Virus record (IMG/VR): IMGVR_UViG_3300030117_004344
Coordinates: 1-34,860 of that record
Length of the DNA stretch: 34,860 bases
Source of the DNA: a virus
Reading direction: 5' to 3' (one strand)
Each line of letters starts with the position of its first letter. Positions within the stretch are counted from its first letter, which is position 1. Below are positions 2,943 through 24,620 of this stretch, piece by piece. A model generated the notes under the pieces. It was given only the letters and a program-made list of their open reading frames with translations. It did no database searches and had not been told where the DNA came from. The translations under genes and the position numbers were made by a program.

Positions 2943-3121
2943 TATATTTCAAATCCAAAATTAAAGATCATAAATCTAAATCTAGGACATGTGCCTTTGT
3001 TTTTACACTTGAAGCAAGGACAAAACATTATCTCAAACATTGTCCACGTTCCTAATCTAAACGTTAATTCATACACTTCTTTTTTGTTACCTGCTCTCCA
3101 GGAATTTATCCAATTAATCAT
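2942..3121 (-). CDS. Small Cys-containing protein with CPCxxC motif (59 aa)
   Basis: A 59-residue frame starting at the ATG at 3121 (MINWINSWRAGNKKEVYELT) and ending FRFMIFNFGFEI. Four cysteines at residues 34, 36, 39 and 45 (FCPCFKCKNKGTCP) make a compact metal-binding-like cluster flanked by aromatic and hydrophobic residues. It is the first gene after a promoter-like repeat at 3138-3157 and overlaps the 23-residue gene by one base (TAATG). With both neighbours it fills the whole space between the 3868-residue gene and the fibre gene. The cysteine cluster and coupling support a real gene. Its role is unknown; a zinc-binding structural or host-interaction protein is one option. Confidence 0.65.
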   Translation of the reverse strand: MINWINSWRAGNKKEVYELTFRLGTWTMFEIMFCPCFKCKNKGTCPRFRFMIFNFGFEI

Positions 3122-3160: not shown

Positions 3161-6100
3161 TTATTGGTGAGCATAACATTTTTTGTTTGTATTCTCTGTC
3201 TTGTTCTTACATCTCTGGCCATTAGATTTAATAGCTGTACACCTGTATTCTTTCTTGCCATCGCCATCAGTATCGCTACCATCTACAAAATCTCTATGAT
3301 GAGGACACTTCCAAGATTTCTTGCTTGTTTCAGTTGTATTGCCACATCTTTCTCCATTTGATCGTATACCAGAACACCTAACTCTTTTAATGCCTTTCTT
3401 TTTCTTTTCTTCTTCTTCTTTCTTTTTCTCTTCTTCCTTTTTCTTTTTCTCTTCTTTTTTCTTTTCTTCTTTTTTCTTTTTCTTTTCTTCTTTCTTTTCT
3501 TCTCTAACTTCTTCTTTTGCTTCTTCTAACTCTTCATCTTTAACTCCAATATCCCATCTGTTCCAACCCATTACTAACATAATTCTCTGCCATGTCTCAT
3601 GATTACCAGTTATAGCTTCTTCTAAATTATTGGCTTTATTAATAACTCTTGCTAAAGGCAAATTAGTTGCGGCTTCTATAATATTAGCCCATTTTTGTAA
3701 TTCTGGATTTTCAATACTCCAACCTAATTTTTCTCCAACACCTTTATTATATTGTTCAGTTTTAAAAGCATTTATTACTTTTCTAATTTTACTACCTATT
3801 GGTGGAGAAAGATTTATTAACTCAAGCGCTATCTTGCTAGCATCCTGTTGACCGTACCCTTTCTTTTTTTGCATATGCCATTGTAAAATGGTATTTTTAA
3901 GAGTTGACAATAAAGCCCCATATAAACCAGTACCACGTAAAAATGAATCCAAAGCTTGATTTAATGTTCTAGTTGTTCTATCTTCAATTTCTTCTTCATC
4001 GTCTCCCCACATTATAGCTGCCAATGCTGTTTGTAAAGAAGCAAATATAATATTTTGAGCAACCGCATAATAAACTATTTTTGATACATTAGTTTTCCAA
4101 TCACCTCTACCATTAACTAAATCTGATAAAGACTTCTTAGTTAACCTACCCATCTGCATTGTAACGTTCTGAAACGCTAAAACCATTCTACCAAGAACGC
4201 TAGCTTGTTGTTGTGATACTAAATCTTCTCTTGATGACTGTTGCGTTTCTTCTGAAATCTCTTGAAAATCTAACATAGCTTGTTCTTGAGCCTGCTTGTC
4301 AGACATCCCTTCTTTTTTATATTTATTAAATCTATTTCTAAAGAAACTAGCACCACCAAAAGCAATAGCAAAACTATCTGCAATTTGCGTTGGCGTAAAA
4401 CCTTTTGATAACAAATAATTAATTACAGCTCTCGGCGTGCCCTTCCCTTCAGCAAATGATTTAGTTAATTCTGAAGCTGACACATCAGTTTGTAACCCCG
4501 CTCTTCTTTGTTTCAATTGAGGTGAATTAAATAACATAACAAAGTCTTTCCAAAACTGAGGCTGGTTTGCGAATGCAGCAGCAGCTTTAAATGCGTTATT
4601 ATCCGACCAGTTTATGAAGTTAACTGTAGATATAGTTTGAAGTAAAGCAGATCTCATATTAAAAAACATAACAGCTCCAACAGATCCGTTTATCCATTCA
4701 ATAAAACCATTAACTGTTTTATCTGGGCTAACACGTCTATTACCGCCATTTTCCATACGATCTAGTATATTTTCTAAAGCGTCTGCAAAACCATCACCAT
4801 ATGTGGCTCTTATTTTATTTAAATTATCTTTACTAAATATAGTATTTTTTAAATTTATCCATTCTTGTAAAAATTGTTTTCTACTAATTTTACCTGTAAG
4901 ATTATTCATATCACCAGGTATAGAGCTAACTGCCCAATTATCAGTTGGTGCAGGATATCCATCTTTAGAACGAGTTACTAATGACAAACCATCTGCAAAA
5001 GCTCTTAATTCAGGATTGTTAGCAACATGATCTATTAGTTGTCTTTTTTGTGCATTTGATATACCAGGAACATCATGCCCTGCTTTTGCAAATAAATAAA
5101 CTCTTACAGCTGTGTCATTTGTAAACGCTGTTCCAGGAATTACTTTATTTAATGACTTAACAACCTTAGGGAATTTTTTCTTTAACGCCTTGTATTCATC
5201 AACCATGTTTTGCTTATACGCATTCCATGATCTTATACCTTTAGCAAATGGATCGAATAACTTTTCTTTAAACCATTTTAAATCAGCATCACCTTGCTTT
5301 CCTTTACCAACAAAGTAATACATTAATCCTTTAAAATCTTCTGCTGATGGTGGTATATAAAGACTTTTTAAGAATCTAACTATGTTAGGTTGTGATCCTC
5401 TTCTTTTAGCTTCAGCTTCAGATATTATTGTTTCAGAATCAACTCCTTTTTTACGTTCAATCATATCATTGAACTCTTTATCAATTGGGTCTCTTCTATT
5501 AGGATCATTGGGATCAGGTTCAACAACCTTGCTTTGCGAAGCGTTACTCTTATCAACAAATCTATTAGTTTGATCTAGTTTAGCTTGAACAACATCTGAT
5601 TTAATATCTAGTTGATCTAACACTTCTCTTACTGCCTCAACGTTTTGTGTAGCGTCATCAGCAAAATACATATCATTATAACCTTCCGCAAACTTATCTA
5701 GCATCCAATCTGCTTTAGCAGCGCCAGTACTATCAGCTAAACCTGTTATATTTTCTAATGGTATATTTAATCCTTGTGATTTTAAAAATTGTTGAATGGC
5801 TTTAGCTGACTTTTGTGTTCTAGCAGTTAAAACAAATATATCTTTAGTGCCATATTTTTTAGCTCTTTCTAATGCTTTACCAAGTAGTGGCCCAGGTCTA
5901 CCTTCTATAACTTGATCAAATTCTGTAAAATCAAATTTACCACCTTGTTCTAATATAGCGTCTCCTTGCTCAGCAAACTCTGTAGCATCTAGCCTACGTT
6001 TTTCATGACCACTAACAAAATTATCCATTTGGTCAACAAGCTTCTTAGGCATTGGATCACCCATTTCTAAATTGTCTGTTTTAACTTCCATGAATCGATC

Positions 6101-9100
6101 ACCAAACATTTCTTTAAATGCAGACTTATTACCTTGAACGGCTTCGTGATTACGTTTAACGATAACATCTAATAAAGATCTTTCTTTCCTAGCTCTATTT
6201 CTTTCTATAGCTGTATCTAAAGACGTTTCAACAAATACCATACTAACATCATATCCTTTGGCTTCAAACTCAGCAACTAACTTTTGCATTTGCTTTAATG
6301 AACCTCCAGTACCGTCAACTACTACTCCATCACCTTCACCTTGGTACTTCATCATTTTATTTCTAGCAATACCTCTAGCTTGATGACCTAACTTACCTAA
6401 TATGCTTCTTTGCTCTGGTGTTAAATCTCTCATGTCCTCAGGTAGACCATGATTCTTTTTTAACCACTCTAATGATATGTCAGAATTAACTACTTTAAAT
6501 CCATCTTTTTCTAAACCTAGTTTTTTAATAACATTACCTTTACCACTACCGGCTCCACCAGCTAAGAATATAACTTTTCTTTTTGGCTTAGGGGTTCCAT
6601 CAGGATTTGGCATTGTAACTCTAACGCCTGATTTAGTTATACCTAATGTATCATCAAAATCAAATACAGATAAACCTTGAACTTTAATTGGTGGTTTACT
6701 AGACATTTTATTACTAGAATCTTGTTTTTGTTTTTGAAATTTCTGTTCACTTTTTTGTTCAGTAGTTGGATGTAAAATTTCATTTATAGGGCCTTCTAAA
6801 CCTTCAGCTACTTCAACAGCAACAGTTTTACCTGTAGCTGTGTTATAAATATTTTTTTGAAAACCTTTTGCAAATTTAACTAATCTATTAACTCCTTCTA
6901 AATTAACTTTATTATCTACAAATTTATCACCAACTTTAACTTTAGCGTCTAGCGCTTTATCAGTAATAAACTTTGGGCCATAAAATGTTTGATGATTACC
7001 AACTAAACTATTTAAATCCTGATTACCACCTAAAGTATAAACAGCTTTTCTAGCGTGTGTCTCTGCTGACGTAGTTAAATGTTCATTTTTTGGTTTTAAA
7101 AGATTTATAACTTTATCATTAAATTTATCACTGTTAACATCTAATTTTGGATTTTCTTTTTTAACTATATCTCTAGCTATTTTCCAGTCAGCTGTTTCTT
7201 TCCAAGAGTCGACATAAGCTTCATACTCTGCTTTATATTCAGGCGTATTTGTTCTATCTTTTTTATTTATAGATCTTTTTGGAGGTTTGCCTCCTAATTG
7301 AGGACCATCTGATAAATATACATAACTTAATGTGCTAAGCGCTCTAGTTCCTCCTACAATATTTGTTTGGAATTGATTTAAGTTAATTACGTTTTCTTTA
7401 CTTATTTTTCCTTTGTCAAATAATTGTTTTTGCTTACCAGCAATATACTTATGTAGTGCTTTATTTGCAAAATTTATTTTTTCAATTTTAGCTTTTTCTT
7501 GAGTCAGTATATCTAATTTTTCTTTTATTGAAGGAGCATTCCATAAACGCTCCATGGTCTTCTTAATTTCACCTTTCCACTCCATCATAGCAAAGTCACC
7601 GTTCTCAATAGCTGTTATTTCAGCATCAGTCATGCCTAGCTTATCTTTCATAAATCTTCTTTCAGACTTAATAGTAGCTTTACGTGGAATATTTTTATTA
7701 AGATAAGTTGGATGCAGCGTTCTAGTTGATGTAGCTGGCAATCCATTGATATATACTATTTTACCGTTTACTTTTAATAGCCCAGAATCTTTAACACCCA
7801 TAACGCCAAGCCCAAAAGCTTCTTTAATAACTGGATGTAGATTTTCTATAAATATTTCTGTTGATCTGGTAAGGCCAAGTAACCCTTTATTAGGAATACC
7901 TTTATCAGAATACCCTTCTACTTTGGTGAATTTATCAACTACGTTTCTAAACTTATCACCCTTTTTAGTTGCTTGAAACATTTTTGCTATATCTTTATCA
8001 TTAGCAAAAAATTTCATTACAAATTCATTGTATCCACCAGGTCCTTGCAAAAAGTTTTGTAATGCTTGATCTCTTAACATATTAGCAAGTAGTTCTGCAT
8101 TTTCTGGAGATACACCATAATCTTTTATAAGTTCATCTATAAGAAGATCTGTATCACCAGTACCATGTGATTCTACGATTCTTTTAAGCGCTTTTGCTAA
8201 ATCAGGAGTTTTTGGAGCTTTACTATATAATCCTTGCGATAAACCATCAGTTAATCTATTATTAGCGTTACCATTGCTTGTTAATTCAGTTACCGTTAAT
8301 GTTGTTGCTATTTGAATAACTAATTGTCTCAGCGCTCCATCAAAGTCCGTCGTGTTTCCTTTAAGTCCAGTTTTTTCAAAAGTTCCGTCAGGGTTGATTC
8401 CAAACATGTCTAAAAATTCTGTTTGTGAAACATCAGTTCTTTTCATTTGTAAAGGCAAACCAGCTCCAGTTGCACCTTTACTCATTCTAGCTCTTTCTCC
8501 TTTAGTATAAAATTGTCCTAGTACAGTATCAGCAATACCTGTTGCTCTACCACTTCTATCTTGACCATCTGGCAGTAAATGAAATAATATATCATTAAAG
8601 CTACCGTCTGGATTAATTGACATGTTTTTAATCCAATTTCTAACTTTATTTCTTTGAAGTTCGTTTAAATTTTGATTTGCTAGTAATCTAAGTGGATCAA
8701 CACCTATTTCATTAGCAAAAGCTTCTAAGATAGGATACAATGAGCCAGTTGGATTAACGTCACTAGCTTTAGTAGGATTTACTAGCTTTCCTTTTTTATT
8801 TTTTACTTTTGGTTTTTCAGTTAAATTTTGATTAACACTTTTGTAATTTAAGTTTTGATCACTATAATCAGTTGTTTTTACTGTATTTTCTAATACCTTT
8901 CTAGCTTTACTTTTTTTATTTTTTTGAATAGGAAGTACAGCATCTTTTACTTTAATGCCAGAAATTTCAGTGTCTGTTTCTGAAGTAAGTTTTATTTCTT
9001 GATTATTAAATTTATCTATTGTTTGTTGATTTACGTCTCCCTCTATAATATCAGCTATAGTACCCGTCTCACTTATTTGTCTCTCTGTTGAAACAACAGT

Positions 9101-12100
9101 TCCTCTTCCACCTGGATTATCTTTTTTCCATTGGGCCATCACGTCACCCCTTGCTCTATATACAACAGATTTACCTTGGCCACCAGCCACACCTGTTAAC
9201 CAACCAAATAAACTACCATTAGCTTCCGTTGGATCAAATCCTTTCTTATTGTTGTCAGGATTGTTTTTAATTTTATTTATTCTCTCTGCAGCCTCTTTAG
9301 CTGTTATTTCACCTTTAGCTCTTTGCTCTTTTATTGCATCAATTTTATCTCTAGCATTTTTTGTTAGTCCACCTAAATATCTTTCTGATATGAGATATAA
9401 AGTTTTTCTAACAAAGTCATTCATTTCTTGCTCTGTGTTAATACCTGTTTCTGCTGCTACCCCTGATTCTATTAATTTTCTTAAAGGCACTGAATTCATT
9501 ATTTCCTTAAAGCCATCCCAAAAATCGTCAGACATTTGAAAATCTTCTTTTGAATTATACTTAGGTTTACCATCTGGACCTAGCGTATATTTGTCAAAAT
9601 CAGGCCTCCAATTAGAGTTTTTATTTATAATATTTTTTAAACTCTTGTTAAACATAGCTTGATTTTTTATTTCAGCAGGTGTTCTAGCGTCTTTAAATAT
9701 TTTACCATTAGCTCCTTTAGCTAACATTTTAGCTATAGCTGGATTTACTTTATTATTTTTAATAGACTTATGGTAGTCTATCATAAAGTTTCTAATATCA
9801 TTTACATTATCAAATTTTATTTCAGCTCCAAGATGATGTTGAGCAAATCTTCTCCATACTCCAGCTAACTTTTGCAATGCTGATTCTTTAATTTTTAAAG
9901 TACCATCAAATTGCATTTCAGAAGCGATAGCCATTTTTTCTTCACCTCTTTGATCTGGAGGATATTGATTGATTCTATTATTAAAATGTCTACGCGCTGC
10001 ATCAGACATTTCTATATTGTCACCATCTAATATAGCGTCAACTTGAGCGCCTAATATTTTTCTCATAGCTGGATCAGCTTTTAAAGTCTGACGCCATGTG
10101 GCGTGTATAAACTCATGAGCGGGTGTATTAAACATTCCGTTTTTCATAACCGCATCTCTATTAATGGCTATATCCATACCAATTATTCTACCATCAGAGG
10201 AAAATTGTGGTTGCATAACTCCAGCATCACTACTTTTCAATATATTGTTAGCTATATTAACTTGTTTATCAGCATCTTTAAGTAATTCTTTAGCGGCTCT
10301 TATTTCTTGTGGTGTAGAATCTGGGTCATTTATTACCTCATTAAGACCTTCTACCATTCCCTCAAAATGACTAGCGGTGTCCTCAACTCTCTTACTTGAC
10401 ATGCCTTGTTCTTTTGATTCGTATTTTTTTACACGCTCTTGGAAATTTTCTTGGTTTTCAACGTGTAGTCTAGTTGGCACACCTCCATATTTTTTAGCTA
10501 AATCAGCCGTTGCTTGTAGTGTTTGAACTTGATCTCTATAATTTTCATCAACAAGATTCTTAGGATATTTACTTATTATAGCTTCTTTACGACTTTCTCT
10601 ACTTTCTATTTTTTGATTTATCTCATTTATTTGTTTAGTTCTTTCTTCTTTTGATAAATCTTTATTTGCTTTTATTTCACGTATTTTTTGTCTGTCTGCA
10701 TTATTTCTTTTTTCTATTTCAATTAAGGTATTTTTTTCTGTAGGATGCAATAAGTCAACTCTTTTAATATCTGTTTCTATTAACTTACCACTAAGGTCAG
10801 CATATTCAGCTAGTTCAGTTTCTAACTGTTCTAATTTTTTTATATCTTGAGGATTTTTAGAATCTTTCAACGCATCCATTTCTGTTGAAATTCTATTCAT
10901 TTCTACATTAACTCGTCTTAATTGATCTTTTGTTGTATTAGATGTAAATGGGGCTGTTGCTAAAACAGCAACTCTAGGTGATTGTAGTGTTCCAGCTAGA
11001 AAAACACCATCAACAAATGCTCTATCCATATTGTCAAAAATACCAACATCTTTTCGGCCAGATATAACTATGTCAGCGGCATTTTCTGCAAACGATGTTA
11101 GCGCTTCTGAAAATCCTTCTGTAAACCATTCTTTTCCTGCTGAAAAAGTTCCACTAGCTAAATTTCTAAGACTAAATGGAGATGCTAGTATATTTTTTAC
11201 ACTAGGAGTAAATAATTTTGAACCTCCTAACATTTTTATTGTTTTACCTCCAATTTTAGCAGTGTAAGTTTCAAAAAGAGCTTCAGCGCCACCTGTTATA
11301 ATAGAATTAGCAACCATACTACCAACAGTATGATTATACCCATATAGACCACCGGTTCTATAATACGTGTCCTTCTGATCCTGCATACTATAGTATTTAT
11401 TAGTAGCAGAGCTTGTACCTATAACAAACATACCAGCCCCAGCACCACCAGTAAGAACAGAACTAACAGCTAAAGTCGCTAAAATAGGCGCTTGCGTAAT
11501 AAGCATTTGAGCTGTGTAATCCCCAGCCTTTCCTTGTATTCTAGCTTCTCTCATTGTTAATGGATCATTAAGAACATCACTAAGATATTTATCTCTTTTT
11601 TCATCTTTTAATGGCCCAGGGAGAAAAAAATCTCGAGACGCTTTTTCAAGCGAAAGAAGAGTATGATTTGAGAGAAAATGATCTTCAAGAACTTTCCCTG
11701 CTTGATGTTCGTTTAAACCATAACCTATTGCTGATAAATTTGTTATATCTAAATTTTCAGAAAGACGCTTGTCAAGATCCGCTATTGTTTTAATAGAAGC
11801 GCGAGAAGTTGTAATCTTTTCATTTAAAAGATCAAACTCTTTAACTAGTTCTCCATCTGTTTTGCCAGTCTTTTCTAAAATTTCTTTATTATATCCATCT
11901 ATATTTTTTTGATTGTTTTTTTGTATACTATTTACTTTTTTATTATATATATCTCTATTCTTTTGCTGTTCATTAATATAGCTAGTAACCTTATTGTTAT
12001 AATTATCAATTTCTTTTTGGTATACGTTTTGATATTCATTAATTTCTTTTTGGGCTAAAGTAGCATCTTGCTGCATGTTTTGAACATAAGATTCCCATTG

Positions 12101-14767
12101 AGCTTGCCCAACTTGAGGTGATAGTTCCCCGCTTTTAACTTTTTGTTGTATATCTTTAAAAGCATTATTTATATCATCTTCTGAAGGAAGATTATATTTA
12201 GTATTTATTTCCTCAATTCCTTTATGATATTCTTCTTCAGTTCTTATTTCATTTTTCCAAGTCTCTATTTTTTTATCAGACTCTTCGTCAGTATCAATAC
12301 TTAATTTTGTTTTTAAAGTGTCTAGTTCTTTTTTTAATTGTTTGTTGGTTTTTATATTATTATTTTTGGATGCCTCCTCTCTTATATTTTTTATTACTTT
12401 CTGCCTTTCTGTACTATCATTTATTACAGTTATTTCTTCTTCAAAAAGTTCATTATTAGCAATTTTTTGATCTATAATTTCATTACTTTTTTCAATTGCT
12501 TCGTCTTTAAGAAAAGCATATTCTCCTTCTTCTATTTCTTTTTTATCTTTAGGTAAATATTTTGTAGTGTTTTTAACATGCTCAGCGAATTCATTTTGAG
12601 TTGCCCTTGATATCATGCTTTCTGTGTACGCATCAAAATAACCATCGGCATTACCTTCTTTATTTTTTAATTCAGAAATTGCTTTATTAAATTGTTCTCT
12701 AGTAATTTTGTCATCATTCAAATCTTTTTTTAGCTTAAGTCTTTCTTCCATAAAAAACATAGCACTATTTCTTTCTTTATTATATTCATCTTGAAAATCA
12801 TCTGAATATGTAGAATAGCGCTTGCCAAGATTATCCCATATGAGATTGTCTATTATATCATCTTTTTCACTACTTTGATACTCCGCTTCAGTTAATTCAC
12901 CACTGTCTAACTTCTTTTTTATAAAATTATTTTTTGCATTATTAAAAATAACATCATCAACTTCTAATCCATTAAGATCTGGAAAGCTTGTATATTGAGA
13001 AGTATATCCATGCTCCAATTGGCTAAATGCGGTATCTGATCGATGTTCTCTAATCTTATTTAATTCTTTAACAAGTTGGACTACAACTCTAGAATTTGGC
13101 TTGTGTCCTTCGGCTTTTTTTTGCCTTATTTCTTCTTCTAATTTTTTTATTCTATTTTGCTTATATACATAGCCGTGCATCTGGTCTTCGATTGCATGCT
13201 CAACGTCGTTTAAATAATTTTGACTAATATTATGTGATTTAGTTTCATCAAGCCAATCATTTTTTTTATCTATTACTATTTTTTCAGTAACAGTTTTTTT
13301 CTCTTGTAATCTTTCCTTTTCATCTTTTACCCAAGGTGTTTTATTATCTTGCATCCAATCCGAAATATATTTAGCGGCATCTATTCGGATTCCTTCTGTA
13401 CCTTTGGTCTTAAATGTTGTGCTTGCTCCAGTGGAAGTATTTGTAACTTTAACTCTATTAACACCTATTCCGCCTAATAAAGAATCTTCACCAGTAAGCC
13501 AATTATAATCATCAATCTCAAATACAAAATCATTAACACCATCACCGTTTGTGTCGTAGTTATACTTCTCGTTAAGTAACTTCGTCGCTTTTCCATCAGA
13601 TTGCTTTAAAATGTAATCCCAATTTAATTCTGGATTCTCATGGTTATACGCATGGCTTTTGTTAAATGCATCATTAATTTTTTCTTCTTGTTCTTTACGT
13701 TTAGCAGTATAAGCAGGATTGTCTATTTTGGATACTTTATAACCATTAGCTAACATTTCGTCATGAGTCATCGGCTTATTAGTATCTTTATTCATTACCT
13801 TAGTAACGCGCTTGCCGCTAGGATCAATATATACTTGTTGACCATTACGTGTTTTTTCGTCTACTTGGTCAACACCTATTTCATCATAATCTCTATCTGG
13901 ATTGTATATATGGTCTTTATTAACCCATTTGTTCATAGAATTATTATATACTTCATTTCCTCCATCTCTGTAACCAAACATCTGTGCGTCTATCTCACCC
14001 ATGCTTTCTGCAGCTTTACGTTGCGCAGGGTGCACGTATCCACCTTGCCCCTGTGTTATATGATCTAGAAATTTATTTTCAAAATAATCTTTAGAGAACT
14101 TATAATTATTTTTTTTATGTTGTTCAAGACGAAGATTTTTTAAGTCAAAAGGCTTAAGAAGATTTTTATGAGCGATGCTAGATTCATCCGGTTTTTTAAT
14201 TTTAAAACCACTTTTTTCCATTGCTTCTTCTTGACTGTAACCTTTGGTTATTAATTCTTCAAAAAGCTTCATATTACCTTTTTCAGGAACTTCGTTTTTT
14301 GAACTTGGTAAATCTTTTTTATCTACTTCTTCTATATTAATATTTAAATCTTTTGTCTCTTCTAAAAATGCGTCTACTTTATCGATTGGGATTTCTTGTA
14401 ATTCTTTCCCATTAGGAAATTTTCCACCACCAACTATTTTAAATTTTTTAGTATTACTTTTTGGAATAGGTAATTCCGAAGAAGATTCTTCCGATTTGGA
14501 TTCCGTATCTGTTTGTTGATTTTTTTGAGACAGGTCTGTCTTCTTGATTTGCTCGTTCGGCTGCAAGTTTAGTTTCTTGCTTACTTCTAAGGCCTTGGAG
14601 CCTGGCAGCTTTCCCGGCGTTGCAGGAGTATAATTGACAAGCTTGCCATACATATTATAAATTTTTTTATCTTTGTGTTCAGCGAAAAAATTATCTTTTT
14701 CACTTTCTGACATTTTGTACGCTTGACGATTTTTACCGTCGTCTACTATGTAAAGTTTTTTTTCCAT
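3161..14767 (-). CDS. Giant multidomain internal/ejected virion protein (polyvalent type, 3868 aa)
   Basis: One uninterrupted 3868-residue frame taking a third of the window. Visible in order: two short related N-terminal units (about 5-33 and 108-138); a calcium-loop-like DTNGDGVND near 403; long charged coiled coils (about 500-1080 and 1290-1440); a Gly/Ala-rich hydrophobic stretch (about 1085-1280); an HExxH metallopeptidase-like site (1551-1555); a large unrecognised region (about 1650-2650); a HAD phosphatase (D2703 to D3038) interrupted by a P-loop kinase (about 2730-2865); an alpha-helical module (about 3290-3700) resembling C-terminal domains of giant phage polyvalent proteins; a Lys/Glu helix; and two zinc-knuckle-like repeats (3798-3867). 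It starts 10 bases after the 306-residue gene, in the position of T7 gp16. I infer packaging in the head and injection with the DNA, carrying enzymes that act early in the host. No RNA polymerase motif was recognised. Confidence 0.85.
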   Translation of the reverse strand: MEKKLYIVDDGKNRQAYKMSESEKDNFFAEHKDKKIYNMYGKLVNYTPATPGKLPGSKALEVSKKLNLQPNEQIKKTDLSQKNQQTDTESKSEESSSELPIPKSNTKKFKIVGGGKFPNGKELQEIPIDKVDAFLEETKDLNINIEEVDKKDLPSSKNEVPEKGNMKLFEELITKGYSQEEAMEKSGFKIKKPDESSIAHKNLLKPFDLKNLRLEQHKKNNYKFSKDYFENKFLDHITQGQGGYVHPAQRKAAESMGEIDAQMFGYRDGGNEVYNNSMNKWVNKDHIYNPDRDYDEIGVDQVDEKTRNGQQVYIDPSGKRVTKVMNKDTNKPMTHDEMLANGYKVSKIDNPAYTAKRKEQEEKINDAFNKSHAYNHENPELNWDYILKQSDGKATKLLNEKYNYDTNGDGVNDFVFEIDDYNWLTGEDSLLGGIGVNRVKVTNTSTGASTTFKTKGTEGIRIDAAKYISDWMQDNKTPWVKDEKERLQEKKTVTEKIVIDKKNDWLDETKSHNISQNYLNDVEHAIEDQMHGYVYKQNRIKKLEEEIRQKKAEGHKPNSRVVVQLVKELNKIREHRSDTAFSQLEHGYTSQYTSFPDLNGLEVDDVIFNNAKNNFIKKKLDSGELTEAEYQSSEKDDIIDNLIWDNLGKRYSTYSDDFQDEYNKERNSAMFFMEERLKLKKDLNDDKITREQFNKAISELKNKEGNADGYFDAYTESMISRATQNEFAEHVKNTTKYLPKDKKEIEEGEYAFLKDEAIEKSNEIIDQKIANNELFEEEITVINDSTERQKVIKNIREEASKNNNIKTNKQLKKELDTLKTKLSIDTDEESDKKIETWKNEIRTEEEYHKGIEEINTKYNLPSEDDINNAFKDIQQKVKSGELSPQVGQAQWESYVQNMQQDATLAQKEINEYQNVYQKEIDNYNNKVTSYINEQQKNRDIYNKKVNSIQKNNQKNIDGYNKEILEKTGKTDGELVKEFDLLNEKITTSRASIKTIADLDKRLSENLDITNLSAIGYGLNEHQAGKVLEDHFLSNHTLLSLEKASRDFFLPGPLKDEKRDKYLSDVLNDPLTMREARIQGKAGDYTAQMLITQAPILATLAVSSVLTGGAGAGMFVIGTSSATNKYYSMQDQKDTYYRTGGLYGYNHTVGSMVANSIITGGAEALFETYTAKIGGKTIKMLGGSKLFTPSVKNILASPFSLRNLASGTFSAGKEWFTEGFSEALTSFAENAADIVISGRKDVGIFDNMDRAFVDGVFLAGTLQSPRVAVLATAPFTSNTTKDQLRRVNVEMNRISTEMDALKDSKNPQDIKKLEQLETELAEYADLSGKLIETDIKRVDLLHPTEKNTLIEIEKRNNADRQKIREIKANKDLSKEERTKQINEINQKIESRESRKEAIISKYPKNLVDENYRDQVQTLQATADLAKKYGGVPTRLHVENQENFQERVKKYESKEQGMSSKRVEDTASHFEGMVEGLNEVINDPDSTPQEIRAAKELLKDADKQVNIANNILKSSDAGVMQPQFSSDGRIIGMDIAINRDAVMKNGMFNTPAHEFIHATWRQTLKADPAMRKILGAQVDAILDGDNIEMSDAARRHFNNRINQYPPDQRGEEKMAIASEMQFDGTLKIKESALQKLAGVWRRFAQHHLGAEIKFDNVNDIRNFMIDYHKSIKNNKVNPAIAKMLAKGANGKIFKDARTPAEIKNQAMFNKSLKNIINKNSNWRPDFDKYTLGPDGKPKYNSKEDFQMSDDFWDGFKEIMNSVPLRKLIESGVAAETGINTEQEMNDFVRKTLYLISERYLGGLTKNARDKIDAIKEQRAKGEITAKEAAERINKIKNNPDNNKKGFDPTEANGSLFGWLTGVAGGQGKSVVYRARGDVMAQWKKDNPGGRGTVVSTERQISETGTIADIIEGDVNQQTIDKFNNQEIKLTSETDTEISGIKVKDAVLPIQKNKKSKARKVLENTVKTTDYSDQNLNYKSVNQNLTEKPKVKNKKGKLVNPTKASDVNPTGSLYPILEAFANEIGVDPLRLLANQNLNELQRNKVRNWIKNMSINPDGSFNDILFHLLPDGQDRSGRATGIADTVLGQFYTKGERARMSKGATGAGLPLQMKRTDVSQTEFLDMFGINPDGTFEKTGLKGNTTDFDGALRQLVIQIATTLTVTELTSNGNANNRLTDGLSQGLYSKAPKTPDLAKALKRIVESHGTGDTDLLIDELIKDYGVSPENAELLANMLRDQALQNFLQGPGGYNEFVMKFFANDKDIAKMFQATKKGDKFRNVVDKFTKVEGYSDKGIPNKGLLGLTRSTEIFIENLHPVIKEAFGLGVMGVKDSGLLKVNGKIVYINGLPATSTRTLHPTYLNKNIPRKATIKSERRFMKDKLGMTDAEITAIENGDFAMMEWKGEIKKTMERLWNAPSIKEKLDILTQEKAKIEKINFANKALHKYIAGKQKQLFDKGKISKENVINLNQFQTNIVGGTRALSTLSYVYLSDGPQLGGKPPKRSINKKDRTNTPEYKAEYEAYVDSWKETADWKIARDIVKKENPKLDVNSDKFNDKVINLLKPKNEHLTTSAETHARKAVYTLGGNQDLNSLVGNHQTFYGPKFITDKALDAKVKVGDKFVDNKVNLEGVNRLVKFAKGFQKNIYNTATGKTVAVEVAEGLEGPINEILHPTTEQKSEQKFQKQKQDSSNKMSSKPPIKVQGLSVFDFDDTLGITKSGVRVTMPNPDGTPKPKRKVIFLAGGAGSGKGNVIKKLGLEKDGFKVVNSDISLEWLKKNHGLPEDMRDLTPEQRSILGKLGHQARGIARNKMMKYQGEGDGVVVDGTGGSLKQMQKLVAEFEAKGYDVSMVFVETSLDTAIERNRARKERSLLDVIVKRNHEAVQGNKSAFKEMFGDRFMEVKTDNLEMGDPMPKKLVDQMDNFVSGHEKRRLDATEFAEQGDAILEQGGKFDFTEFDQVIEGRPGPLLGKALERAKKYGTKDIFVLTARTQKSAKAIQQFLKSQGLNIPLENITGLADSTGAAKADWMLDKFAEGYNDMYFADDATQNVEAVREVLDQLDIKSDVVQAKLDQTNRFVDKSNASQSKVVEPDPNDPNRRDPIDKEFNDMIERKKGVDSETIISEAEAKRRGSQPNIVRFLKSLYIPPSAEDFKGLMYYFVGKGKQGDADLKWFKEKLFDPFAKGIRSWNAYKQNMVDEYKALKKKFPKVVKSLNKVIPGTAFTNDTAVRVYLFAKAGHDVPGISNAQKRQLIDHVANNPELRAFADGLSLVTRSKDGYPAPTDNWAVSSIPGDMNNLTGKISRKQFLQEWINLKNTIFSKDNLNKIRATYGDGFADALENILDRMENGGNRRVSPDKTVNGFIEWINGSVGAVMFFNMRSALLQTISTVNFINWSDNNAFKAAAAFANQPQFWKDFVMLFNSPQLKQRRAGLQTDVSASELTKSFAEGKGTPRAVINYLLSKGFTPTQIADSFAIAFGGASFFRNRFNKYKKEGMSDKQAQEQAMLDFQEISEETQQSSREDLVSQQQASVLGRMVLAFQNVTMQMGRLTKKSLSDLVNGRGDWKTNVSKIVYYAVAQNIIFASLQTALAAIMWGDDEEEIEDRTTRTLNQALDSFLRGTGLYGALLSTLKNTILQWHMQKKKGYGQQDASKIALELINLSPPIGSKIRKVINAFKTEQYNKGVGEKLGWSIENPELQKWANIIEAATNLPLARVINKANNLEEAITGNHETWQRIMLVMGWNRWDIGVKDEELEEAKEEVREEKKEEKKKKKEEKKKEEKKKKEEEKKKEEEEKKKKGIKRVRCSGIRSNGERCGNTTETSKKSWKCPHHRDFVDGSDTDGDGKKEYRCTAIKSNGQRCKNKTENTNKKCYAHQ
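3167..3376 (-). other. Tandem C-terminal zinc-knuckle-like repeats in the giant protein
   Basis: Two copies of a Cys-x9-Cys ... Cys-x2-His pattern end the giant protein. The first uses C3798, C3808, C3821 and H3824, the second C3843, C3853, C3864 and H3867. Both share the core R-C-x-x-I-x-S-N-G-x-R-C-x-N-x-T-E. Between them sits an acidic loop (DTDGDG, from 3832). The spacing and ligands fit a small zinc-binding module resembling, from memory, DUF5763-type phage domains. Nucleic-acid or protein binding is plausible. Confidence 0.6.
3393..3505. repeat. 113-base uninterrupted pyrimidine tract (purine on the coding strand)
   Basis: Every base from 3393 to 3505 on the plus strand is C or T. On the coding strand it encodes a Lys/Glu run, about residues 3755-3792 of the giant protein, that probably forms a highly charged single helix linking the C-terminal module to the zinc repeats. 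The near-repeated units of AAGAAGAAA type make it prone to length change by slippage. Confidence 0.85.
5654..6661 (-). other. HAD phosphatase domain with inserted P-loop kinase (within the giant protein)
   Basis: HAD motif I is DFDDT at 2703-2707 (nucleophile D2703, acid D2705). The next HAD motifs appear only ~270 residues later: LTAR with T2981, and the acidic ADD at 3036-3038. Between them lies a P-loop kinase: GGAGSGKG at 2737-2744 (K2743), a catalytic-type NSD with D2763, VVVDGTGG with D2818, and a lid-like Arg cluster (R2856, R2858, R2860, R2863). The kinase part looks like the polynucleotide kinase/zeta-toxin group. The pair recalls 5'-kinase/3'-phosphatase end-repair enzymes, but here one domain is inserted in the other. 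Confidence 0.65.
10103..10117 (-). other. HExxH metallopeptidase-like site (within the giant protein)
   Basis: Residues 1551-1555 read HEFIH in the context NTPAHEFIHATW, preceded by a beta-strand-like segment (IGMDIAINRDAV). Downstream, RGEEKMAIASEM (1607-1618) supplies glutamates (E1609, E1610, E1617) that could be the third zinc ligand, as in gluzincins. Zinc peptidase domains are known in giant phage polyvalent proteins. A role in head maturation, self-cleavage or attack on host proteins or peptidoglycan peptides is possible. Confidence 0.55.
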
Positions 14768-18767: not shown

Positions 18768-21700
18768 TTAATTATTAGGATCAGTATCTGCTAAATCACC
18801 AATCGTTAATGTTGCTTGAACCGGTTCAGTTGCTGTCACGGTACTTGGAAATCCTATTCCTTGTACAGAGAATTCGCTTGAATCTAAATTACTGACTGTT
18901 GTTGCTAAACCGCTTATTTTATTAAACCATTTACCTTCTTTTTCTATAAATTCAGAAATTTTACCTTGCTGTAAATCTGTATTAAATGAATCAACGTACC
19001 AACCATTTTTTGAACTTAAATTATAAAATTCATTATCTTGTAAATTTTGTAAAACTTTAGATTGGCTTCCTTCGTAATTAACAGCTTTAAAAGATTTTAC
19101 AGAACTAGGTATATCATTAAATAATACTTCTATTTCAGATTCGTATTGTTGGCCATAAAAATAATTTCTATTAACAAGGTTGCTATAGTGCTCATATATT
19201 TTATATCCATTAGCAGTAAAATATTTGCCGCTTATAGATACTCCAGTTGAAGGAATAAAAGACTTAAAGCTAATCCAACCTTTTCCAGCCTCATTAAAAG
19301 ACGCTGTTATTGGAGAGAGACTTGGATTCACTTTAGTATCTATATCAAGTGTAACATTATATTCATTATTAACAGAATCAAATGTGCCTAATAAAGTGGT
19401 ACATTTTTTTAAATTTTCTCTGAAATAGGTTCTCATGCCTACATCAGATATTGGCGTTAACCCATCGCCTGACAATCTTAATACAGCTCCTCTTTGCTTG
19501 TCTGTAAAATACATTCTGTAACTATCCCATGCTAAAGATTCTGGATTTTTTGATATACCATAATCACCAGCAAATGGAATAGATTGACCTAAAACTTTAT
19601 TAGTAGCTGTTAATTGAGCGTCACCATCAGCATTAAATACAGCATCTTTATTAGATAACACTTTTAACACTTTGTCTTCTGTAAAAACAACAACATTAGT
19701 ATCTCTGGTTTTCATAGCTTGTATCGAACCATAAATAGGATTTAAACTTTTAGTTATTTTTTCAGCCATATTAAACTGATTCAAATCATTGACGCTAGAT
19801 GTTGAATTATATAAACCAGAATATATCATTCCGCTACCTATAACTTCTTCTCCATAATCTAAAAACGTAGATGATACTTTTACACCATTGTCTATTTGTG
19901 GAGCGTTAAAATCATCACGTATTCTATCTGATTCCACGCCATTACCAAAAGCATAACAATTAAACCAACCTAATTCTACTGGATATCTCCAAACGTCTCT
20001 ATCTAATCTAAATTTTCCAGTAATTTTTATAAACTCAATAGATACATTATCAGAAGTTGTCAAAAATGGTTTACTTATGCTTATTGTATAAGTTGAAAAA
20101 CCACCAATTGATTGTGATTCAATTTCCGAAATAAAAGTTCCTTTTTCTATACCAGTTCCTCTTACTTCCATACCAACTTCTAACATAGTTGCGTTAGGAT
20201 AACTTATTGTGTTTATACCAGTTATTTGACTTTCATTTTCTATAATATTATTTATTATTGAAAATCTTTCAGAAGGAACAGCAACAGCAGTTGAGTCTTC
20301 AAACTTTATATCACAATGATCTATAATTTTAGACTTATTAGCTAATCCATTTTTATTTGTAAATGAAACCACATCATCTATTATTATGCTAATATTATTA
20401 TATGTAACAAGATCCGTATCAGTGCCATCATCATTAGGGTCGTGCCTTACATGAATAACGTCATCACCATAAACACTATATATAAACGGTTTTCCAGATA
20501 TATTAACTTCTTCAGATAATCCTTCCGTTACTAAAATCCTTGTGTCAACTGATAATTTACTTGCTTCTTTTCGTATCTTTGAAGGACTAACAAATAAATC
20601 TATATTATCACTTCTTAATTTTAACGGTATAGCTCCGCTAGCCTCGTAATATATATCTAAACCTACATCTTCTTTAGGTTCTGTTTCCCAACATGCCGCA
20701 TTTGTTGCTAACGAATTATCTCCTAAATCTTGTGGCAAAACTCTTTCTAATATATCTATACTTAAGCCACCAATACCATTATGTTGTACTTCTCCTCTAG
20801 GATCCCATATATCAGTATCTATTCCACCCCCACCAACAACGTTCTCATCAATTTGATCTCCAGTTGCATCTACTTTTACAAATCTAACTATTATTGAGTA
20901 TCTATTATAAAGATCGCTATCAGGATTGTTAAAGTTTTTACTAACAATAGTTTTATCATGAGACGTTACTGGTGATGGATATACGTTAGGCTCTCCACCA
21001 AAACCAACATAAAGAACTTTGTAAACTATTTGATTAGGATCTGCTTTAAATCTAAAAAAAGTACCAGGTGTTTGCATTTTAGATTTAAAAATAGCAGCTA
21101 TGCCAGTAAAATCTTGACCAATTGTTGAAAATGTTAATTGACCTTTAGTACCATTAGCAAAAAATCCATTAGTTAAACCACTAGGTGCCCAGTTAGAATA
21201 TGATGCTGGATTTATATCATCTAAAGTAAAATCACTACCTTCTGGAAAAAGAGAAGTAGCTGGAGATCCTATTGGCCAAGGCCCATCATTTAAAGGGCTT
21301 ATGCAATTTAATAAGGAAAGTAAGTTTCCAGAAGGAAGAGTTTCAGGAACTTGCTCTTCGTATCCAGGTAAAGAAAAATCATTATAAGCAGGTGCATTAT
21401 CAATAAATATATCTGTTGTTCTAGTCGTGTTACCGCCAACGCCCTGATTATACCACCAATTCCAAAATCCTTCAGTATTTACAGAATCGCCAGGTCCAAA
21501 ACTTGGAAGATCCTCAACACCGTCTTCGTCAAAATCTACATTATTTGCTATTGTAGAATTTATAAAACCACCAACTCCACTAGCAGGCCAAGAAAAGTTA
21601 GCATTAGAGCCAGCTTCTTCAGCATCAGCATTAGCTGGATTAGTAGCGACATTATTAATATAAGCTATATTAAAACTTTCTATTATTTCATAATTACCTT

Positions 21701-24620
21701 GACTTTGTCCCAAGACTCTATTTTCTAAAGTGTCATCTTTTTCTATTTTAACAAAAAATCTACCATCAAATTGTGGTTTGTTTTCTACTACCGCGTCCCT
21801 AAGTTGTAAGTAATACTTTATTTCGTAAGTACCACTTTGAACATCTACATCAGCTATATTAGATACTAATGTAGATAAAGAAGTTCCAGACAACTTACCA
21901 ATGATACGCTCATACATGTTTACTTGGTCATTGATAAAAGCATCTCTAAATACTACGCCTCTTATATCATTTTCTGGATCATCATCTTCTTTATTAACTA
22001 TTCTTGATACTGTTTTCCAAGGACTATGCGCTGTAACAACCGTATTGTTATTAACGGAGTCAGTATATTCACCTACTATTCTACCTTTTATTATTCCTTT
22101 AAAATCTTTTCCTTTTATACCTATATCGTCCCAATTACCAGAATTTACTAATATTTTATTATCAGTCGCACTTATTAATTTATCAGGTATTGCATTACTA
22201 ACATCTCCAACAGCTCCGCTATAAACTTGATCTCTATCTATTCTAATTTTTTCAAGATCTCTATTGTCAGTTTTAATGTAATCAGGGGCCTCATTTGATA
22301 TTGCTATAATTTTATATCTAGCCTCTTCAGTTACCGGCTTTTGACTACCATGCTCGTTTTTTAAAATTAGATACGTTCTTTCATCTATTTTATTTCTATC
22401 GACAGACGCAAATGCTAACCACACATTACCATCTCCAGCGTCATACCATCTATCTAATACTAAATTATAGTATTCGTTAGAAGTTTCTTTTACATAATAT
22501 TTAACATAATCAATCCAATCTAAACTAGAAGGATCAGCACTATCCCAACTTTGTTCTATTTTAAATTTATTGCTATTTCCTGAAAAACTTTTTTCAACAG
22601 TTAAATCTCCAGTAACAGTTTCTCCTGATTCATTTTTATAACCATTAGCAATTACTGGAGTTTCTCTACCATACTTATCTCCAAACACAGCTCCAAACTT
22701 ATAATTTCTTATTGATTTTATTGATTTTTTTGGAATAGGAAAATTAACCGTATCTGATACTAAAGATTGTTTTAATCCAAAAGAATTATTTATATCATAA
22801 CCTTGTTTATAATTACCATAAACTATTCTACTAGCTGTTATTTCTTGAGCTATAGCGCTTCTTGGTACATTATCCCAAGATCTAAGCATTTGATTAGCTT
22901 CAACTACCCTGTGTATCATTTCTGACATTACGGTCATAGAACCTGTGTTTACTGAATCAGGATCATTAAAGTTTTTCCATTCAGTATCTATCCCTCTTTT
23001 AATGCTTTTTATAATATAAATATTTGCATTATCTGTAGTTTTCCATAATATATCAACACATTTTACATCAGCTGGTCTTCTTGAAAGATTTGGTATAAAA
23101 TCTTTAATAATTAATTCTCTAAGATTATTAACCATTCCTTCATTAAATCCTTTACTTGGTGTATAAGAAAATGAACTAGGTAAAAACACTAAATCAGACC
23201 AAGGTGAAAAACTAGAATATTCGTTGTCTTCATATTGATATCTATATCCAACTCTACCAAATTTAGTTTCAAAAAAAGGCTTTTTTTGTTCTATTGTTGC
23301 TTTCCATATAGTTGGTTGTTGATCAGCTAACTCGTCATCAACAAATATCATTTTTAATAAAAAAGTAGTAGTTCCTTGAACGTTATTTATTATTTCAAGA
23401 ACTCTAGCTCTTAGTATAACAGGATTAATAGAACCAGACATTTCTTCTATTTTTAACACATCTCCAACTCTAACCCCTGTAGTTTGCGATACAGTTAGAA
23501 ATCTTGTGTCGCCTTCAGTTGGAACTGCTGCGTCTCCACTAATTTCAGCGTATTCATCTGGATAGACAAATTGGTAACTAAAGAAAAATTGAGTAGCGCC
23601 CTCTCTATCAGTATTGCTAATATATGTTGTCGGAGGTGATGTAGGCGCTTTTTTAATTACAGTTATATTTTCTTTTTTTACATCAGCTGTTAGTAAATTT
23701 TCAATATTAGTTATTACTGATAAATCATTAGTATCGTTATTATGAACAAAAAGCTCTGTATGTGTATAATTATTTGTAGTTCCTTTTCTTGATCTTGTTA
23801 TATTTATTTTTTTTGGTTCGTTTTCGCCATCCGTCCAAAATAATAAATCATCAATAACATTAATACCAGTTATTAATTTTTTATGATTAAATTCTAATAC
23901 TCTTTCTTTATGAACAAATTTCATTACAGTACAAAATTCTGAAAGTAAATATTCATTTTGCTCTGCCGCTAGTGTTATTATATTATTTTCAATGTTTATT
24001 ATTTCAACACCAGGCACGGTTTGTTCAGAGTCAGCAAACAAAAAATGATCGCCATTGTTATTTTGAGCATAAACGATCATTCCAATTCTATATTTTGTAG
24101 CGTCAGTAACTTCTATTTGTGAATAAGGTGGGGTTTGATTACCGTTATAATTATACATAGTAGCACCAACATTAGAAAAAGTGTCAGTTACGGCAAATCT
24201 ATCAACAAAAATAGCTTCATTTCTATTACCATCAATATCAATTTCTATTATATTATCTACCCACGCTTGTTCTGATGTTATAAAAGTTGGATTTATATTT
24301 TCTATTCCCCAATCTGGAACTGGAGCCGCAGAAAAAAAATAAGCATTGTTATTCTTTTCATCAGCTACACTTCCTACTATTTTTGTAAGCTCAGTATTGC
24401 CATCAGCATCTATTGTACTTGTTGTAAGATATGCTGCTATTTTTTCTATATTACCTTCTAAATTTTGCACAGTACCTGAATCACCAAGCCCATCAGACCC
24501 GCCGTCAGTTGTTCTAACTTGTATATTTAAAGCATCCCTATATTCGCCATTTTGAACAATTCTTTCATCAAGATCTTTGTTCATTTTTCCAGCGCTGAAC
24601 GTGTGTTTAATTTCTGGCAT
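18768..24620 (-). CDS. Giant tail nozzle/stabilisation-type protein (1950 aa)
   Basis: A 1950-residue protein. Its N-terminus (MPEIKHTFSAGKMNKDLDER, then NGEYRDALNIQV at about 26-37) and a C-terminal region (about 1650-1760: KVLGQSIPFAGDYGISKNPE, then YFTDKQRGAVLRLSGDGLTP) match my recollection of the stabilisation/muzzle proteins of crAss-like and related marine phages. These play the part of T7 gp12, the tail nozzle. The middle (about 950-1500) is Asn/Asp/Gly-rich and holds a calcium-loop-like DFDEDGVED near 1030. It follows the 301-residue connector by 4 bases. T7 gp12 is about 800 residues, so this one is greatly enlarged, probably by inserted surface domains. Assignment rests on remembered family resemblance and order. 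Confidence 0.75.
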   Translation of the reverse strand: MPEIKHTFSAGKMNKDLDERIVQNGEYRDALNIQVRTTDGGSDGLGDSGTVQNLEGNIEKIAAYLTTSTIDADGNTELTKIVGSVADEKNNNAYFFSAAPVPDWGIENINPTFITSEQAWVDNIIEIDIDGNRNEAIFVDRFAVTDTFSNVGATMYNYNGNQTPPYSQIEVTDATKYRIGMIVYAQNNNGDHFLFADSEQTVPGVEIINIENNIITLAAEQNEYLLSEFCTVMKFVHKERVLEFNHKKLITGINVIDDLLFWTDGENEPKKINITRSRKGTTNNYTHTELFVHNNDTNDLSVITNIENLLTADVKKENITVIKKAPTSPPTTYISNTDREGATQFFFSYQFVYPDEYAEISGDAAVPTEGDTRFLTVSQTTGVRVGDVLKIEEMSGSINPVILRARVLEIINNVQGTTTFLLKMIFVDDELADQQPTIWKATIEQKKPFFETKFGRVGYRYQYEDNEYSSFSPWSDLVFLPSSFSYTPSKGFNEGMVNNLRELIIKDFIPNLSRRPADVKCVDILWKTTDNANIYIIKSIKRGIDTEWKNFNDPDSVNTGSMTVMSEMIHRVVEANQMLRSWDNVPRSAIAQEITASRIVYGNYKQGYDINNSFGLKQSLVSDTVNFPIPKKSIKSIRNYKFGAVFGDKYGRETPVIANGYKNESGETVTGDLTVEKSFSGNSNKFKIEQSWDSADPSSLDWIDYVKYYVKETSNEYYNLVLDRWYDAGDGNVWLAFASVDRNKIDERTYLILKNEHGSQKPVTEEARYKIIAISNEAPDYIKTDNRDLEKIRIDRDQVYSGAVGDVSNAIPDKLISATDNKILVNSGNWDDIGIKGKDFKGIIKGRIVGEYTDSVNNNTVVTAHSPWKTVSRIVNKEDDDPENDIRGVVFRDAFINDQVNMYERIIGKLSGTSLSTLVSNIADVDVQSGTYEIKYYLQLRDAVVENKPQFDGRFFVKIEKDDTLENRVLGQSQGNYEIIESFNIAYINNVATNPANADAEEAGSNANFSWPASGVGGFINSTIANNVDFDEDGVEDLPSFGPGDSVNTEGFWNWWYNQGVGGNTTRTTDIFIDNAPAYNDFSLPGYEEQVPETLPSGNLLSLLNCISPLNDGPWPIGSPATSLFPEGSDFTLDDINPASYSNWAPSGLTNGFFANGTKGQLTFSTIGQDFTGIAAIFKSKMQTPGTFFRFKADPNQIVYKVLYVGFGGEPNVYPSPVTSHDKTIVSKNFNNPDSDLYNRYSIIVRFVKVDATGDQIDENVVGGGGIDTDIWDPRGEVQHNGIGGLSIDILERVLPQDLGDNSLATNAACWETEPKEDVGLDIYYEASGAIPLKLRSDNIDLFVSPSKIRKEASKLSVDTRILVTEGLSEEVNISGKPFIYSVYGDDVIHVRHDPNDDGTDTDLVTYNNISIIIDDVVSFTNKNGLANKSKIIDHCDIKFEDSTAVAVPSERFSIINNIIENESQITGINTISYPNATMLEVGMEVRGTGIEKGTFISEIESQSIGGFSTYTISISKPFLTTSDNVSIEFIKITGKFRLDRDVWRYPVELGWFNCYAFGNGVESDRIRDDFNAPQIDNGVKVSSTFLDYGEEVIGSGMIYSGLYNSTSSVNDLNQFNMAEKITKSLNPIYGSIQAMKTRDTNVVVFTEDKVLKVLSNKDAVFNADGDAQLTATNKVLGQSIPFAGDYGISKNPESLAWDSYRMYFTDKQRGAVLRLSGDGLTPISDVGMRTYFRENLKKCTTLLGTFDSVNNEYNVTLDIDTKVNPSLSPITASFNEAGKGWISFKSFIPSTGVSISGKYFTANGYKIYEHYSNLVNRNYFYGQQYESEIEVLFNDIPSSVKSFKAVNYEGSQSKVLQNLQDNEFYNLSSKNGWYVDSFNTDLQQGKISEFIEKEGKWFNKISGLATTVSNLDSSEFSVQGIGFPSTVTATEPVQATLTIGDLADTDPNN

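Follow-up and report, generated by a model that had tools for sequence, protein, structure and literature searches.

In the known enzymes of the Pnkp type, kinase and phosphatase are fused in tandem: in T4 Pnkp and bacterial Pnkp1, a P-loop kinase precedes a HAD phosphatase in the same chain. HAD phosphatases, for their part, have a flap after motif I that adjoins the active site and is the site of their C1 caps. The two enzymes are again found together, in a different layout, in the window analysed here, a stretch of 34,860 nucleotides of viral DNA (IMG/VR record IMGVR_UViG_3300030117_004344, positions 1 to 34,860). One giant protein encoded there holds both, as in the Pnkp enzymes, and with the motif II arginine kept (R2983, by motif the counterpart of T4 Pnkp R213), but the kinase, instead of preceding the HAD domain, is inserted after HAD motif I. 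This nesting is real and conserved, and apparently functional; substrate and delivery we infer. Our reading, to which we give a probability of about one half, is that residues 2697-3063 form a single bifunctional enzyme, a HAD phosphatase with a P-loop phosphotransferase nested in its hairpin, delivered by the virion and most likely engaged in Pnkp-like end healing. A search of the open literature, which was not exhaustive, came upon no account of a HAD domain interrupted by a kinase.

A kinase nested in a phosphatase

The giant protein and its module are laid out as follows.

3161..14767, minus strand: giant open reading frame (ORF) holding the kinase/HAD module, 3868 amino acids (aa) in one continuous reading frame
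6593..6679, minus strand: HAD part 1, the motif I strand (DFDDT) and the first arm of the flap hairpin (from motifs and model strands 9-14 and 26-31)
6661-6647, minus strand: HAD motif I, DFDDT, residues 2703-2707, with catalytic D2703 and D2705
6011..6580, minus strand: nested P-loop kinase, residues ~2730-2919 (from Pfam, Foldseek and conserved catalytic residues)
6559-6536, minus strand: kinase P-loop, GGAGSGKG, residues 2737-2744
Residues D2763, D2818 (in DGTGG, 2818-2822) and R2856/R2860/R2863 (lid arginines): kinase catalytic residues
5579..6007, minus strand: HAD part 2, the second arm of the flap hairpin and motifs II-IV (from motifs, model and uninterrupted relatives)
5830-5819, minus strand: HAD motif II, LTAR, residues 2980-2983, with T2981
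5716-5714, minus strand: HAD motif III lysine, K3018
5659-5654, minus strand: HAD motif IV, D3037/D3038 (ADD being 3036-3038, ending at 5654)
3164..5485, minus strand: C-terminal region of the giant, conserved in relatives with or without the kinase

The first-pass annotation had proposed a kinase inside a HAD phosphatase, and homologues, a structure model and empty sites all support this, with HAD as the outer domain and both parts catalytically intact. Its motif positions agree with our read-out, save that LTAR starts at 2980 and not at 2981. It had also called the kinase complete. This stands in so far as the domain, like zeta toxins and AAA_33 kinases, exceeds the Pfam gathering scores of both AAA_33 (PF13671; 6.5e-11, 43.1 bits, gathering 27) and Zeta_toxin (PF06414; 3.1e-10, 40.3 bits, gathering 22.3); it needs qualifying at the residue after the P-loop lysine, a glycine where serine or threonine is normal. 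A frame artefact as the source of the nesting is ruled out, the ORF being unbroken across 3868 codons.

Homologues keep this layout. In 48 distinct relatives the kinase sits between HAD motifs I and II at near-constant spacing: counted from the start of DFDDT, the P-loop follows after 34 residues and LTAR after 277 or 283. Conservation of the motifs among homologues was a point on which the annotation had made its proposal depend, and in 45 of 45 nested sequences the HAD residues D2703, D2705, T2707, T2981, R2983, K3018, D3037 and D3038 are identical, as are K2743, D2763, D2818, R2856, R2860 and R2863 of the kinase. Altogether 14 of the 15 catalytic positions checked are invariant; the exception is again the residue after the P-loop lysine (Ser in 24 sequences, Gly in 19, as in the window, Thr in 2). 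Glycine at this place is otherwise known from adenylate kinases. With median pairwise dN/dS of 0.19 (HAD) and 0.20 (kinase), the alignments indicate that both domains are under purifying selection, with catalytic residues intact. A chance match of motifs is rejected by the 45 conserved sequences, the purifying selection and the structure model.

The AlphaFold2 model of the module, built on the 45-sequence alignment, has a mean pLDDT of 89.7 and a pTM of 0.78. Its HAD strands (9-14, 26-31, 232-237, 288-292, 343-348 and 367-372) come in order at high confidence, with the residues of motifs I-IV invariant, while the kinase runs unbroken over about 42-230. Strands 26-31 and 232-237 flank the kinase, splitting the flap hairpin (pairing read from the DSSP string), and in the model the kinase occupies the classical C1-cap position. 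As in C1-capped HAD phosphatases, it is the flap behind motif I that receives the insert; unlike theirs, the insert is itself predicted to be a catalytic kinase (or, in some relatives, an ART-like domain), not a mere cap for substrate specificity. Sequence profiles recognise the outer domain poorly: no curated HAD model matched the giant protein above its cut-off, DUF2608 matching below threshold only, and among the uninterrupted relatives, which are capless and of C0 type, L069 gave 13.3 bits with a HAD model (below cut-off) and L055 24.9 bits with DUF2608 (cut-off 22.6).

Empty sites and exchanged inserts

IMG/VR was scanned for relatives, giving 417; we retrieved 80 of these, and later scans enlarged the set. 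The 199 distinct HAD sequences classified were drawn as best matches to chosen queries, so that their proportions are not population frequencies. By the distance from DFDDT to LTAR they fall into 140 uninterrupted domains (77-87 residues), 48 with the kinase (277/283), five with an ART-like domain (214/216), five with short inserts (100-122) and one incomplete sequence, and every class of insert lies between HAD motifs I and II. In the kinase-free domains of the first scan DFDDT (or DFDET) stands 77-80 residues ahead of LTAR. This spacing leads us to reject the idea that DFDDT is a mere lookalike and the two domains an unrelated tandem pair; by sequence comparison the nesting is a true insertion. 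The hairpin itself reads VLYTMP-[DGST]-GKLNAEEFA when empty, VLYTMP-[about 140 aa]-KLNAEEFA in the ART-like version and VRVTMPNPDG-[kinase]-RLDATEFA in the window.

The ART-like domain (YHGAP...FFATD) was seen in this hairpin at L058:10001-10939 and in L087-L090, with a structure pLDDT of 90.2. Its identity as an ART is tentative, with a PF18760 match of 15.3 bits only and a Foldseek match to KptA at E 0.33. The exchange looks recent, because HADs carrying this insert and their empty-site relatives are 75-87% identical over shared columns. At the same hairpin tip L264, L265, L267 and L269 have an insert of ~45 residues, probably helical.

On a HAD tree built with the insert columns excluded (a rapid build in which forks stay open), the kinase label takes 2 changes, against a mean of 41 when shuffled. 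L052 and L053 lack the kinase, yet lie inside the kinase-bearing set (98% SH-aLRT). The tandem form, with the kinase behind the HAD in one chain (L050/L051), belongs to a separate DFDET group, with 67% identity in the kinase; on the kinase tree, its derivation from a nested kinase has an approximately unbiased (AU) test p of 0.44, which leaves the matter undecided. Bacterial relatives came from two loci only, both in metagenome-assembled genomes and both with the HAD alone. From the HAD part behind the insert, or just beyond it, to or near the C-terminus, blastp aligns the window giant collinearly with those of L052, L053, L050, L069 and L004 (43-74% identity), that is, with kinase-bearing, kinase-free and tandem types. 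Conserved with or without the kinase, this region marks the place of the HAD as an orthologous position.

The phosphatase thus resembles a dock at which one enzyme can be swapped for another. We would go further only tentatively: it is possible that the flap hairpin is a general loading slot, exchanging kinase, ART-like domain and small helical elements while the phosphatase stays undisturbed, the insert acting as a cap and both active sites serving one substrate. The same exchanges might be told differently, the HAD being mainly a scaffold of the giant, structural or accepting caps, with the kinase or ART-like domain inserted as the effector and phosphatase activity secondary. Such a scaffold would account for a domain that keeps one position ahead of the conserved C-terminal region whether or not a phage has the kinase, and for a hairpin that accepts several unrelated inserts; the invariance of all HAD catalytic residues under purifying selection makes it improbable.

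Stand-alone relatives and probable delivery by the virion

In cultured phages only relatives of the kinase were found, and no nested form. The family includes gp129 of Pelagibacter phage HTVC008M and gp118 of Methylophilales phage Melnitz, stand-alone proteins of 220-222 aa with 33-34% identity, whose leaders point to packaging in the capsid; in these phages, unlike in the window, the HAD has its own gene, which may be close by or more distant. Many stand-alone kinases of T4-like marine phages begin with 8-20 residues that end in L-x-E and are followed by G (MKTFAELQE/G, MIPFILKE/G, the slash marking the boundary); leader-bearing kinases were seen at L161-L240, L081 and L082. Internal proteins of T4 carry capsid-targeting leaders of 10-20 residues, cut behind a glutamate (PMC5694885; PMC9026906), and the leaders of the stand-alone kinases resemble these prohead-protease signals. 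By this analogy, capsid packaging of the kinase family is likely. An HxGH-type nucleotidyltransferase (GRFNPPTxGH) lies near the stand-alone kinase in 41 of 80 loci, several times behind a similar E/A, and the two may possibly make up a set of packaged enzymes. Gp053 of Agrobacterium phage Atu_ph07 (778 aa; L083:3221-5557) has the leader MKWNDLNE/A and an apparent ART-like N-terminus (YRGM...STS, by eye) joined to the same kinase.

The head and tail of crAss001 store cargo proteins, giants included, which are presumed to be ejected (PMC10172136). There, as here, the genes of giants follow that of the muzzle in a cassette of podoviral type, but the crAss giants include RNA polymerase-related proteins, where the window giant carries a kinase and a HAD. 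On the 5' side of its gene come terminase, portal and capsid, then a tail protein with a crassvirus muzzle C-terminal domain. Because a crAss-like structural cassette precedes the giant gene, and because the stand-alone relatives have T4-type leaders, the giant protein is probably kept in the virion and leaves it together with the DNA on ejection.

What the nested enzyme may act on

The giant protein would enter the host together with the viral DNA, and on entry the kinase would add, and the HAD remove, a phosphate, both working on one class of substrate. A shared substrate is suggested by the fact that two intact, opposed phosphoryl-transfer enzymes stay together in three ways, nested, in tandem in one chain, or as neighbouring genes in Melnitz-type phages. 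Most likely this substrate would be a broken nucleic acid end, its 5'-OH being phosphorylated and its 3'-phosphate removed as by Pnkp, and such healing would restore DNA or tRNA that the host's defences have cut. We consider this substrate quite possible, at somewhat less than even odds.

The fold is what recommends it. Structure prediction and a fold search had been proposed in the first-pass annotation, together with a comparison to Pnkp; the model gives a HAD fold with a hairpin split by the kinase, and the top three Foldseek matches in the PDB are Pnkp enzymes, Pnkp1 (4xrp) and T4 Pnkp (1ltq, 2ia5), at E 1.5e-7 over 357-365 aligned columns covering both domains, with zeta toxin next. The best match of a single domain is the kinase of Clostridium thermocellum Pnkp (CthPnkp), with a TM of 0.74-0.75 by target; CthPnkp is also among the matches, all of them weak, of a PDB search by sequence. 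The HAD of a sister model matches the T4 Pnkp 3'-phosphatase (5uj0) weakly (E 0.038, TMt 0.51). As far as the model goes, Pnkp-type end healing fits both the fold and an early, virion-delivered role.

The likeness does not extend to sequence, and several observations weigh against end healing or against delivery. The acceptor-phosphate arginine of Pnkp sits at D+3 (R38 in T4, R41 in CthPnkp); the module lacks it, having an invariant leucine there (D39-I40-S41-L42 in alignment A2), and it carries a GTG motif like that of zeta kinases (VVDGTGG...GYD), for which reasons it is not to be called a Pnkp. Searched over the whole record, the PNK3P family gave no match. The two-domain Foldseek matches have root-mean-square deviations of 16-25 A, so that folds and domain order agree while the arrangement does not. 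No ligase appeared among the six ORFs of the other 13.8 kb that were searched in Pfam, the remaining ORFs lying outside this search. The HAD gene adjacent to the Melnitz kinase is an NT5C-type nucleotidase, pointing to nucleotides. As for delivery, the gene at the equivalent place in Elemovirus elemoA is annotated as a structural protein, but the window giant has no sequence similarity to it, and virion location rests on position.

The first-pass annotation had named, as its alternative, phosphorylation of a small molecule in the manner of zeta toxins. The zeta-like features raise the question of whether the kinase acts in this way on a small molecule such as UDP-GlcNAc, altering cell-wall precursors on entry, next to an independent or antagonistic phosphatase. 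Besides the Zeta_toxin score and the VVDGTGG...GYD pattern, the STGR/GTGK of the stand-alone relatives is zeta-like. In a search of viral models the best matches are proteins of uncultured viruses, at most 75-79% identical over part of the module, and one relative, 75% identical, bears the UniProt name UDP-N-acetylglucosamine kinase. Zeta-like kinases are described in polyvalent proteins, in a survey whose main text is silent on phosphatases (PMC5512222). No epsilon/PezA-type antitoxin was recognised among the ORFs scanned, which were part of the whole; to stay linked with a phosphatase, in three different layouts, is not characteristic of zeta toxins, from which the window kinase also differs by its nesting in a HAD; and Foldseek puts the Pnkp enzymes ahead. 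This account, and with it a cell-wall precursor as substrate, is unlikely.

A nucleotide or another small molecule as substrate is less remote, if doubtful. In one form of this idea, which we hold unlikely, the kinase would serve nucleotide or NAD-type salvage or reprogramming, phosphorylating a nucleoside or nucleotide freed by defence while the HAD trims another. Nucleotides are favoured by the GKG of the P-loop and by adenylate kinases among the weak matches in sequence, as well as by the nucleotidyltransferases near stand-alone kinases and the NT5C-type HAD genes that neighbour the kinase in 27 of 80 loci, all from Melnitz-type phages closely related to each other. The phages with these neighbours are, however, T4-like and distant, the window itself has no recognised nucleotidyltransferase, and the adenylate kinase matches are weak. 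End healing remains our preferred reading.

The carrier virus and the rest of the giant

The tail protein (18768-24620, minus strand; 1950 aa) has a muzzle domain matching above cut-off (7.2e-8), in a podovirus of flavobacterial type. Relatives of the portal are phages of Flavobacterium, Cellulophaga, Tenacibaculum and Maribacter, and the host of this uncultured virus is probably to be sought among marine flavobacteria. A GroEL-like ORF (L244:3538-5106, minus strand, by sequence reading) lies in the remainder of the record, and annotated GroEL is also present in related flavophages. Orthology with the giants of Elemovirus, ctfjg026 and Panino is rejected: HAD and kinase are absent from those, and the sole similarity is a 28% match of residues 1111-1268 to the Panino giant.

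Elsewhere in the same 3868-aa ORF as the kinase and the HAD there is a metallopeptidase-like motif, HEFIH (10103-10117, minus strand), in a region without a Pfam peptidase match. At its end (3164-3550, minus strand) the protein has a long linker rich in Lys and Glu and, behind it, a pair of Cys/His motifs, RCSGIRSNGERCGNTTE...CPHH and RCTAIKSNGQRCKNKTE...CYAHQ, for which all Pfam families fell below cut-off. A PolyVal Pfam domain was looked for in the giant protein and not found.

Meaning of the nested arrangement

Two opposed phosphoryl-transfer enzymes are nested here, and natural relatives exist with an empty site, with both enzymes in tandem or with another insert. These forms make it testable whether a catalytic domain can serve as a HAD cap, and the newest aspect is the HAD hairpin as a hotspot of insertion. 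In phages that are uncultured and widespread, the module is a defined candidate for a virion-delivered enzyme of nucleic acid repair or of nucleotides.

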